NCBI RefSeq assembly: GCF_009497655.1
Contig: NZ_CP023317.1
Coordinates: 447,001 to 511,000, forward strand
DNA: 64,000 nt
Direction: 5' to 3'
Origin: Priestia megaterium
Lineage (GTDB): Bacteria; Bacillota; Bacilli; Bacillales; Bacillaceae_H
The notes under the pieces are model-generated. The model had not been told where the DNA came from. It ran no database searches and saw only the letters and a list, made by a program, of their open reading frames with translations. How positions within the stretch are numbered: position 1 is the first letter of the stretch; each line of letters starts with the position of its first letter. A program made the translations under genes and the position numbers. Shown piece by piece: positions 33,997 to 37,194 of the stretch.

Positions 33997-34310
33997 TCAT
34001 TTTGTCTATAAAAATATTATTCTCTTAGTCACATCTTACTCAAAATTAAATACAGACATCTGTCAAATGAATGATACAATAAGCTTATATGCCGTTTTGA
34101 GTGGGAAAACCAAAAAAGAGTTCGGCGTACTAACTTCGGAACAACAATAATTTTACATAAAGATGTAAAGATTTAAAGGTTAAAAGAGAAATGTATAAAA
34201 TCTGTAAAACAAAAGAACAGTTACGCGTTAAACATAGGAGTAAAAGGTTCTTCACGTGTTTTTTCGGATAATAAGAGAAAGTAATTTTGATCATTGAGGA
34301 GGAACTTAGA

Positions 34311-35315
34311 ATGTTTGGATTTGATGGAGATGTATCGCCATTAGTGCGAATTAAAGTAATTGGAGTCGGCGGTGGAGGAAATAACACCGTTAACCGTATG
34401 ATTGAACATGGTGTACAAGGGGTAGAATTTATCGCCGTTAATACGGATGCTCAGGCGCTTAATTTATCTAAAGCAGATGTGAAAATGCAGATTGGTGCGG
34501 CATTAACGCGAGGATTAGGTGCAGGAGCTAATCCAGAAGTAGGAAGAGAAGCTGCAGAAGAAAGCAGAGAGCAAATTCAAGAAGTACTGCAAGGCGCAGA
34601 TATGGTATTCGTAACAGCTGGCATGGGGGGAGGCACTGGTACTGGAGCAGCTCCGGTTATTGCCCAAATTGCCCGTGAACTAAATGCTTTAACAATTGGA
34701 GTAGTTACTCGTCCTTTCAAGTTTGAAGGAAATAAACGTACCAAGCAAGCAGTAGGCGGTATTACTGCGATGAATGAATCGGTAGATACCCTTATTGTCA
34801 TTCCAAACGACCGTTTGCTTGAAATCGTTGATAAAAAGACACCTATGCTTGAAGCATTCCGTGAAGCAGATAATGTTCTTCGCCAAGGTATTCAAGGTAT
34901 TTCAGATTTAATCGCTGTTCCAGGGCTGATTAACCTTGACTTTGCTGATGTAAAAACAATTATGTCTAATCAAGGATTTGCGCTTATGGGTATCGGACGA
35001 GCTTCGGGATCAGATCGAGCAATTGAAGCAGCGAAAAAAGCGATTTCTAGTCCGCTGCTAGATGCATCGATTGATGGAGCAAGAGGCGTGCTGCTGAACA
35101 TTACGAGCGGCAGCAGCCTGAGTCTTTACGAAGTACAGGAAGCAGCAGATATTGTCACGTCCGCTTCTGATCAGGACTTAAATATGATTTTTGGATCTGT
35201 GATTAATGAAGATTTAAAGGACGAAATGATGGTAACCGTTATTGCCACTGGATTTGATGATGAAGGTATTTCACCATCAGCTTCCACTTCTAGAGTTTCA
35301 AGAGCACGCTACTAA
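34311..35315 (+). CDS. FtsZ paralogue lacking the C-terminal tail
   Basis: A 334-aa tubulin/FtsZ GTPase. The GTP-binding signature [10 protein letters not shown] (107-116) and the T7 catalytic loop NLDFADV (208-214) are intact, so GTP-dependent polymerisation is expected. The protein ends at the end of the globular domain (about residue 318) with [14 protein letters not shown]: the variable linker and the conserved D-x-P-x-F-L tail that binds FtsA, SepF, ZapA and EzrA are missing. No ftsA or other division genes are adjacent, so the housekeeping ftsZ is presumably elsewhere. GGAGG site 8 nt before the ATG at 34311; the frame extends to a TTG upstream without reason. Confidence 0.9.
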
Positions 35316-35326
35316 ATTAAATAACC

Positions 35327-35540
35327 AGCTTTTATGGTGGCAATTGTTTTTCAATTGCCTTAAAAGGGAATCCGGTGAAAATCCGGAGCGGTCCCGCCAC
35401 TGTAACAAGGAGCCTTATGTCAAAAAGCCACTGTCTATTTAGAGACGGGAAGGCGGTATAAGGCAATGACTTGAAGCCAGGAGACCTGCCATAAATCGCA
35501 GCACACAATAACCTACGAGGATAGGGAGGTGTTTTGGCAG
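35327..35540 (+). ncRNA. cobalamin (B12) riboswitch
   Basis: Conserved aptamer segments in order: AAAGGGAATCCGGTG, GAGCGGTCCCGCCACTGTAA and the B12 box GCCAGGAGACCTGCC (35476-35490). A terminator follows at 35594, so the switch should stop transcription when adenosylcobalamin is present. It controls the solute-binding protein gene at 35653. Confidence 0.95.
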
Positions 35541-35593: not shown

Positions 35594-35623
35594 AAGCACT
35601 TCTTTTTAGAAGTGCTTTTTTTT
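35594..35623 (+). terminator. riboswitch expression platform terminator
   Basis: AAGCACTTCT pairs with AGAAGTGCTT over a TTTT loop, then a T8 run. It is 30 nt before the regulated gene. Confidence 0.92.
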
Positions 35624-35652: not shown

Positions 35653-37194
35653 ATGATAAATAATAAAAAACTTGTATCTATGATATTTCTCGTGTTACTT
35701 TGCCTCACTGCTTGCGCTCCTAATGAAGAGAGCGTAAGTATAAAAGAAAGAAAGAAAACGGATAAAAGTGTGACGTTTTTATTTAATTTTACATCTGCAA
35801 CGCTTGATCCTCATACGGACGATAATTATACAGCAGTTCGTGGGGGAGTAGGGGAGACGCTTGTTAAAATCAACGACGATTTAAAAATAAAGCCTTGGCT
35901 TGCTGAAAAGTGGGAAACGAAAGATAACGGCCTTACATGGACATTTATGATAAGAAAGAACATCACGTTTCAAAATGGAAAAGCGCTAGATGCAAATGCC
36001 GTTAAGTCTTCTCTTCAAAGAACGATAGATCAAAGTTATGCGATGAAAAACGCTTTAAATATTAAAGAAATGAAAGCGAACAGTCATGCGCTGACAATTA
36101 CATTAAAAGAACCAATGCCTAAATTTCCTTCTGAATTAGTGCATCCAAATACAGCTATTATAGATGTTGATGCTTCTAATATAGCTAAGAAGCCCATTGG
36201 TACGGGTCCATTTCGCGTCTTGTCTTTTGATCAAGGAAATCAAGTAAAATTAGAAAGATATGAAAATTATTGGGGTGGAAAAGTGAAATTGAAAAGTGCG
36301 ATCTTTGGATTTAACGAAGATGCTAATGCGCGAGTTGCTGCTCTTCAATCTGGAACAGCCGATATTATTTATCGCCCGCCTTTAGAAAGCTTGGGCACTT
36401 TACAAACAGATCCGTCTTTTAAAGTAAGTGGAGTACCTAGTGTGCGCACCCATTTATTGCTTTACAATCAAACTAATGACGCATTAAAAGACGAAAATGT
36501 AAGAAAAGCTATCGATACCTTATTGAACCGAAAAGAAATTGTTAGCAGCATCATGAACAATCAAGCGGCAGCGGCTCGAGGTCCATTTTTACCCCAATTT
36601 CCTTTTGCTGATAGTACTGCTAATGAGCAAAGAGGTATGACATCTGCTAAAAAATATTTAGAGAAAGCAGGCTATCAAATCAAAAATGACAAAGCAATCA
36701 AAAATGGAAAGCCACTATCGCTCTCTCTTGTCACATACAGTTCTTTGCCAGAACTGCCTTTAATTGCTCAGCTTATACAGTCTAATGCCAAAGAGTTAGG
36801 AATTACTATTAAGATTCACCTAGTTGAAGATAGCGATGAATATGTAATGGCAAAAGATGATTGGGATTTAGCATTGTACAGCCTTATCACAGCACCTAGA
36901 GGAGATGCCAGCTATTATTTAAGTACGAACTATTTGCCCGGCGGTGGTTTAAATGCCAGCCGGATTAATGATGATACGCTAACAAAAATGATAGAACAGT
37001 TAAATTCAACAGTAGATGACGCAAAACGAGATCAGTTAGCCAAACAAGCAACCGCTTTGATTAATAGAAAAATGCTGACGTCATCGATTGTACATCCAAA
37101 CATTGTTGTTGCTTATAATCAAAAAGTGAAAAACTGGACAACAAATCCAAGCGAGTATTATATGCTGACTCAGCATTTAGACGTAACACCGTAG
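35653..37194 (+). CDS. B12-riboswitch-controlled ABC solute-binding lipoprotein (NikA/OppA family)
   Basis: A 513-aa family 5 extracellular solute-binding protein with lipobox LTACA (Cys21). SBP_bac_5 signatures are visible (LAEKWETKDNGLTWTFMIRKNITFQNG, PIGTGPF). The family carries peptides, nickel or metallophore complexes. Control by a cobalamin riboswitch points to cobalt or a cobalt complex as the ligand. No permease or ATPase genes are near, so it must share a transporter encoded elsewhere. An ATG 4 nt upstream gives a 4-codon ORF only; the ATG at 35653 follows AAGGTGG. Confidence 0.87.
   Translation: MINNKKLVSMIFLVLLCLTACAPNEESVSIKERKKTDKSVTFLFNFTSATLDPHTDDNYTAVRGGVGETLVKINDDLKIKPWLAEKWETKDNGLTWTFMIRKNITFQNGKALDANAVKSSLQRTIDQSYAMKNALNIKEMKANSHALTITLKEPMPKFPSELVHPNTAIIDVDASNIAKKPIGTGPFRVLSFDQGNQVKLERYENYWGGKVKLKSAIFGFNEDANARVAALQSGTADIIYRPPLESLGTLQTDPSFKVSGVPSVRTHLLLYNQTNDALKDENVRKAIDTLLNRKEIVSSIMNNQAAAARGPFLPQFPFADSTANEQRGMTSAKKYLEKAGYQIKNDKAIKNGKPLSLSLVTYSSLPELPLIAQLIQSNAKELGITIKIHLVEDSDEYVMAKDDWDLALYSLITAPRGDASYYLSTNYLPGGGLNASRINDDTLTKMIEQLNSTVDDAKRDQLAKQATALINRKMLTSSIVHPNIVVAYNQKVKNWTTNPSEYYMLTQHLDVTP

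Follow-up and report, generated by a model that had tools for sequence, protein, structure and literature searches.

FtsZ is usually regarded as one protein per bacterium, and it is through its tail that the main FtsZ is held at the membrane, the anchors FtsA, SepF and EzrA being dependent on this part. What, then, is the role of a second FtsZ that lacks linker and tail and is encoded away from the division genes? Such a protein, here called FtsZ2, is encoded in the 64,000-nucleotide stretch of Priestia megaterium DNA analyzed here (the window), and we asked whether it is a genuine and conserved protein, where it came from and what it might do.

The ftsZ2 gene and its surroundings

The ftsZ2 gene (positions 34311–35315 of the window, + strand) lies on the 5.03-Mb contig C1 of a 5.24-Mb genome and encodes 334 amino acids from an ATG start, preceded by a ribosome-binding site, GAGGAGG, read from the sequence (34296–34302, + strand). 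A preliminary description of this DNA had judged the GTPase core to be functional in appearance, and the profile searches agree: the G loops and T7 loop are intact, and the protein matches NCBIfam TIGR00065 (ftsZ; 457.7 bits, cut-off 295.2) and, above their cut-offs, PF00091 (185.7 bits) and PF12327 (115.5 bits), the latter, FtsZ_C, being covered to its final position (95/95). FtsZ2 thus has the features of the FtsZ protein family, namely the Tubulin/FtsZ GTPase domain, FtsZ_C, the GTP-binding loops and the T7 catalytic loop. Residues 2 to 318 align with solved FtsZ structures, the best being 2vam and 2rhh, which we take to be structures of B. subtilis FtsZ; these represent main division FtsZs with linker and tail, whereas FtsZ2 has neither. 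Its best relative in a named collection is a protein of Priestia aryabhattai B8W22 (99% identity, full length).

Exactly two PF00091 matches are present in the genome (G000), which rules out the possibility that there is no second ftsZ. The other is the full-length gene next to ftsA for which the preliminary description had proposed a search. It is found at G000:C1:4047293, between ftsA (TIGR01174, 428 bits) and spoIIGA, and encodes a main FtsZ of 385 amino acids with a full tail, to which FtsZ2 is 83% identical over residues 1–322. FtsZ2 does not share the place beside ftsA that is typical of a canonical division FtsZ. As had been noted, no dcw gene lies nearby: tblastn gave no match to ftsA or spoIIGA within the window, and no other dcw gene was noticed by eye among the open reading frames of 28–42 kb.

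The observation that FtsZ2 stops at the end of its globular domain also stands. After VTVIATGF, the main FtsZ continues for 70 residues (ending DIPTFLRNRNRRR) and FtsZ2 for 19, without the linker and conserved C-terminal tail (DIPTFLR) of a canonical division FtsZ. In comparison with the main FtsZ, linker and tail are replaced by this 19-residue basic end (35256–35312, + strand), and residues 318–334 have a pLDDT below 50 in an AlphaFold2 model that is poor throughout (mean pLDDT 64.7, 17 rows). ZapA had been listed among the proteins that recognize the tail; to our knowledge, it is not generally considered to require it.

FtsZ2 is probably made from its own promoter. A scan gave a putative sigma-A-type promoter at 34053–34080 (+ strand; CAGACA, 16 nt, TACAAT, and a TG ahead of the −10; 9/12 matches), which is weak evidence alone, since consensus promoter-like sites in the region numbered 6 against 4.4 expected. 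The site is identical in all five genomes of the megaterium group (G000, G001, G003, G006, G008), and CAGACA-18-TACAAT precedes ftsZ2 in two other genomes of the genus, G002 and G004, where the gene is at a different locus. The similar promoter at this other locus suggests that ftsZ2 relocated together with its promoter.

Two nucleotides past the ftsZ2 stop codon begins a cobalamin riboswitch aptamer (35318–35508, + strand; RF00174, 136.7 bits). The preliminary description had mentioned a B12 riboswitch neighbor that may be there by chance. The riboswitch is real and is found at the same place in 5/5 megaterium-group loci; as a general partner of FtsZ2 it is unlikely, since no cobalamin aptamer was found at the three loci scanned (L062, L063, L064) of the 18 tail-less loci outside this group, and as far as seen it is not part of FtsZ2 function. 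Its likely target is the gene for a nickel-type ABC transporter substrate-binding protein (Opp5A/NikA; 35653–37194, + strand; NF045468, 692.3 bits, cut-off 600), with an intrinsic terminator detected by scan in between (35594–35617, + strand). Cobalamin riboswitches were not found at five scanned loci of binding-protein paralogs with 51–56% identity (L196–L200). The ftsZ2 message may run on into the riboswitch, as the + strand gave no terminator between gene and aptamer.

The window neighbors of ftsZ2 encode a tautomerase, the NikA-type binding protein, an rRNA pseudouridine synthase and a methyltransferase. Within the genus, the binding-protein neighbor at the ftsZ2 locus, and the tautomerase anywhere, occur only in the five megaterium-group genomes, and the neighbors as a whole recur only in this group, the exceptions being a transporter matched at 29% and a 64% match in L082 that lies 8 kb away. 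Among 22 tail-less loci of 15–17 kb, all of which lack ftsA and spoIIGA, no neighboring gene with more than 40% identity is common to different GTDB families. A partner gene shared between families is thereby ruled out, the only matches being 24–38% ones of ABC ATPases, MFS transporters, aldo/keto reductases and the like, so a partner of FtsZ2 should be encoded elsewhere.

Some loci have neighborhoods of their own. In genera g23 and g80 of family f20 (L066, L067, L069–L073, L078, L079), a uxuA-like and short-chain dehydrogenase gene pair (62%) and a DoxX-like gene (45–50%), all three named by eye, lie near ftsZ2; their presence in both genera argues against a fully scattered ftsZ2 gene. In genome G137 (L074:7986–12690), an actin-like/ParM-type gene comes after the tail-less ftsZ, with a PspA-type gene farther along; both are below curated cut-offs, and this context is not common to the loci of other families. 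In G002 and G004, a small gene immediately ahead of ftsZ2 is preceded by a c-di-GMP-I riboswitch (L062:5846–5932 and L063:9241–9327, respectively), which genes for PAS/GGDEF-type proteins (domains by eye) adjoin.

Distribution and origin of second FtsZs

Tail-less second FtsZs are present in 7/10 genomes of the genus, and the remaining three (G005, G007, G009) have a single FtsZ; the copies in G002 and G004 are 317 amino acids long. In another genus of the same GTDB family, which was sampled with 16 genomes, G012 and G013 each encode three FtsZs (main, long-tailed and tail-less); contamination of these assemblies is 8 and 9%, and in G012 all three genes lie on a single 5.65-Mb contig. Across the order, 76 of 397 genomes, counted by eye from the table, contain at least two PF00091 matches. 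The 67 of these outside the family were searched again with FtsZ2 and the ends of short copies read, giving a total of 23/397 genomes with a tail-less second FtsZ (14 outside the family and 9 within), the broken copy of G349 (L100) being left unclassed. Of these 23 copies, 16 stop 2–5 residues past the core, the five of the megaterium group stop after 19, and two in family f30 have altered ends and lengths of 320 and 340 amino acids. Among 272 genomes from other orders of the class, three (G525, G564, G574) contain a second match with an E value of 1e-60 or lower; both listed frames of G564 and G574 are at least 378 amino acids long, and the second match of G525 is outside the matches listed. 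Since FtsZ2 is absent from three of the ten genomes of the genus and G164 retains only a remnant of a second ftsZ, the protein is not indispensable.

An origin from a plasmid or phage was rejected, as no close relative turned up among plasmids or phages in collections that may omit records very close to the window's genome: the best plasmid match was 81.6% identical, to a Bacillus velezensis record annotated as ftsZ, and the best full-length phage match was 79.9% identical, to a 2.6-kb Listeria record. FtsZ2 also lacks the features of TubZ, which is plasmid- or phage-borne and has diverged strongly from FtsZ: FtsZ2 lies on the 5.03-Mb contig and retains 83% identity to the main FtsZ.

To place the second copies, a tree of 84 core sequences was built, in which seven rows from Paenibacillaceae and one from Terribacillus served as the outgroup. 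One branch (support 95/91; 98% of 200 bootstraps) separates 45 second copies from 31 main FtsZs and the 8 outgroup rows. For the 12 rows that come from named genomes, position in the tree and the lack of ftsA, and not another ftsZ found, decided their class as second copies. An ftsA match, sought as an independent check, lies beside 39/39 mains and outgroup rows and beside 0/45 second copies, some of whose loci span only ~1.5 kb on either side. V129I is present in 44/45 second copies and in none of the 39 mains and outgroup rows. With the branch support, the ftsA split and V129I pointing the same way, the second FtsZs of Bacillales look like a single paralog family that arose from one duplication.

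Within this family, the tail-less copies do not group together. Forcing all 18 tail-less rows into one clade was rejected (p-AU 0.00014), which rules out one single event of tail loss, and the tail-less rows of families f1 and f30 are placed apart from those of f20, f17 and f4. On the evidence of this tree, second copies have lost the tail two or more times; a remaining doubt is attraction between fast-evolving rows, which also applies to the second-copy family as a whole. The preliminary description had asked whether FtsZ2 forms a conserved Priestia clade. It is conserved in Priestia, and the tree extends the answer to a Bacillales paralog family with repeated tail loss.

The tailed members of this family, in Neobacillus, Mesobacillus, Peribacillus and relatives, resemble FtsZ2 in falling on the second-copy side of the tree and in having no ftsA beside them. 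Unlike FtsZ2, nearly all end in a tail of the DIPxFLR type, in many cases preceded by a long repeated linker; the second FtsZ at L084 has a linker and no DIPxFLR-type motif. At L087–L092, L101 and L102 (families f23 and f47), the linkers are long and often repeat-rich (e.g., YGRYNEQQD units), and the proteins have an IPAFLRNRK-type end.

Residue changes in the tail-less copies

FtsZ2 differs from the main FtsZs at 18 of 232 core columns that are invariant in 30 mains. With the loops under their usual names, none of the 18 changes is located within T1, T3 or T4, the G-rich loops, or within the T7 loop; A26T is beside T1 and T137K is in T5.

One change, G266S, is found in all six distinct tail-less rows of family f1, whereas 39/39 mains and outgroup rows have glycine. 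In the sections of PMC4832351 available to us, G266S is one of six substitutions around the inter-domain cleft that were selected in S. aureus FtsZ, where it results in small colonies and abnormal cells. In those sections, the B. subtilis FtsZ G266S mutant is viable and listed only as 3-MBA resistant, so G266S in FtsZ2 need not alter the ring much. The same source describes B. subtilis FtsZ E251K as polymerizing yet forming no ring; the change in FtsZ2 at this site is the milder E251D. Our residue numbering agrees with the residues named in that paper, S. aureus FtsZ itself being outside the alignment.

The six cleft sites of that study, where changes are known to affect assembly, are changed in 16/18 tail-less copies, compared to 1/27 tailed second copies and 2/39 mains and outgroup rows, and random sets of six columns part the groups equally well in only 9 of 5000 draws. 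We regard this pattern as only a lead, since it was sought after G266S had been noticed, offers just two independent pairs (sign test, p 0.5) and concerns copies that carry more changes overall than most tailed second copies. As a lead, it is compatible with the idea that FtsZ2 may differ in its assembly switch as well as in anchoring.

Another change, D287H, occurs in 10/10 distinct tail-less rows of families f20, f17 and f4 (L066–L079), in 8/27 tailed second copies and in none of the 39 mains and outgroup rows. We take D287 to be a site linked to the MinC response in B. subtilis. Neither D287 nor K243 matched as a term in PMC2920321, which left the link unconfirmed.

Possible roles of FtsZ2

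FtsZ2 is a real, selected paralog, and on balance we lean toward its acting as an untethered subunit, co-assembling with the main FtsZ and tuning the dynamics of the ring. FtsZ2 would join protofilaments of the main FtsZ via the conserved longitudinal interface. Since it should be unable to bind the tail-dependent anchors FtsA, SepF and EzrA, there would be fewer tethers per filament length, and because its inter-domain region is altered (G266S, V194I, E251D), subunit turnover may change as well. The mixed filament would then have both fewer membrane ties and a different turnover. Co-assembly is favored because the polymerizing motifs are intact, selection on FtsZ2 is strong and there is a precedent in chloroplasts. 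Against this, mixing of the two proteins might be impeded by surface changes in FtsZ2 (K64A, K79R, K80E, E234S).

The precedent is provided by FtsZ1 of plant chloroplasts and FtsZB of red algae. According to the available parts of PMC12343686, these proteins were duplicated from a tailed FtsZ and lack the C-terminal peptide but keep the GTPase core, which raises the turnover of the tailed partner in co-assembled filaments; FtsZ2 may act in a similar way. The likeness is that FtsZ2 is also a second FtsZ without the C-terminal peptide that derives from a tailed FtsZ. However, FtsZ1 and FtsZB are plastid proteins of separate origin, Arabidopsis FtsZ1 (AtFtsZ1) has a membrane-binding C-terminal motif of its own, and it is for these proteins that co-assembly and dynamics were measured. 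It is possible, if somewhat doubtful, that Bacillales with FtsZ2 have a two-subunit Z ring, in which the ratio of tailed, tied FtsZ to untied FtsZ2 with a retuned inter-domain switch would govern both treadmilling and how densely the ring is tethered. Such a ring would parallel, in bacteria, the FtsZ1/FtsZ2 ring of chloroplasts, and would have come about through at least two losses of the tail.

Bacteria also provide examples. FtsZm of Magnetospirillum gryphiswaldense is, like FtsZ2, an accessory FtsZ beside a main FtsZ and, as far as is known, it lacks the tail. Its gene belongs to the magnetosome mamXY operon, and the protein functions in biomineralization, as stated in excerpts of PMC8547445; the FtsZ2 locus has no magnetosome operon context. 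Agrobacterium tumefaciens has three FtsZ homologs, of which the excerpts of PMC13170164 assign linker and C-terminal peptide only to the essential one; the second FtsZs are alphaproteobacterial and are likened to FtsZ2 by description. Since accessory FtsZs without the C-terminal peptide are already known, FtsZ2 is not a new kind of protein. Among the titles and abstract openings listed, we found no report of a second FtsZ in Bacillales, here seen to be conserved and to have had its tail shortened repeatedly, and the accessible portions of PMC9871819 and PMC13194920 contain nothing on a second FtsZ in this order. A strongly conserved tail-less partner in the tractable P. megaterium would allow the role of the tail to be tested directly in a mixed filament, and would also offer a way into why second FtsZs arise repeatedly.

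If FtsZ2 does not mix with the main FtsZ, it could build an untethered cytoplasmic filament of its own for a task other than division. Such a role would fit a full polymerizing core without a known membrane-anchor peptide, the absence of ftsA and spoIIGA from all 22 tail-less loci and from the window, and the position of the G137 copy before the actin-like/ParM-type and PspA-type genes. Yet no partner gene is common to the families, and the 83% identity together with unaltered G and T7 loops would make it hard to keep FtsZ2 from mixing with the main FtsZ; we consider a separate filament unlikely.

A little less likely still is a role as conditional brake, in which FtsZ2, produced under stress, would cap or dilute FtsZ filaments and so delay division. 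A tail-less subunit should weaken anchoring of the ring, and two expression reports could be read in this way: FtsZ was more than 3-fold up at high salt in the B. megaterium DSM319 proteome (PMC7053513), and FtsZ was down at high cell density (PMC1622742). In the parts of both papers available to us, however, which FtsZ is meant is not stated, and both reports may concern the main protein; moreover, the putative ftsZ2 promoter is sigma-A-like, and no stress-type promoter was established. More generally, proteome or transcript data from P. megaterium that say only "FtsZ" may conflate two proteins.

We think it very improbable that FtsZ2 is a duplicate drifting toward loss, although its patchy presence in the genus and the remnant in G164 would be expected for one. 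In all 10 pairs of the five megaterium-group genomes, the FtsZ2 core has 0–1 replacement versus 17–31 silent changes (dN/dS 0–0.013), compared to no replacements in the main FtsZ, and the copies of G002 and G004 differ by 1 replacement and 71 silent changes (dN/dS 0.0034; main FtsZ, 0.0044). FtsZ2 of the megaterium group is under very strong purifying selection and, at these short distances, Priestia conserves FtsZ2 nearly as tightly as the main FtsZ, which contradicts drift for this genus, as does the conserved region upstream of ftsZ2. Between G000 and G002, where silent sites are near saturation, FtsZ2 evolves faster, with a dN of 0.134 compared to 0.028 for the main FtsZ. Elsewhere, dN/dS of tail-less copies is 0.066 (G012/G013), 0.017 (G258/G357) and 0.037 (G077/G034). 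A further point for drift is family f30, where the pair G343/G362 has a dN/dS of 0.31 and selection is relaxed. The f30 copies (L076, L077) carry T109I in the GTP loop, N263K and T309I, which we view as a sign of altered or decaying function, and T109I together with this dN/dS indicates that the GTPase-like core is not kept in all lineages.

Finally, the caution in the preliminary description that a frameshift or sequencing error behind 35315 might hide a normal tail can be set aside as having practically no likelihood, since FtsZ2 stops at the same codon in 5/5 megaterium-group genomes and no tail-like motif ([IVL]P[TASD][FY][LIFM]R) occurs in any frame of the window.

Several other unusual ftsZ-like genes came to light during these searches. 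In Rossellomorea sp. AcN35-11, a 628-kb replicon recorded as a plasmid carries, in a single run (L206; CP128836.1 106443–115327), ftsA, a divergent ftsZ (62%), ftsL, genes for thymidylate synthase, PhoH and a DnaD-domain protein, csrA and a flagellin gene. The ftsZ at G048:C1:1099020–1100006 is read as three overlapping frame pieces, possibly because of an assembly error. Several families of the order encode divergent FtsZ-like proteins of ~280–308 amino acids with 24–29% identity (L103, L104, L105 and others), of which L103 falls below the Pfam cut-off for PF00091.
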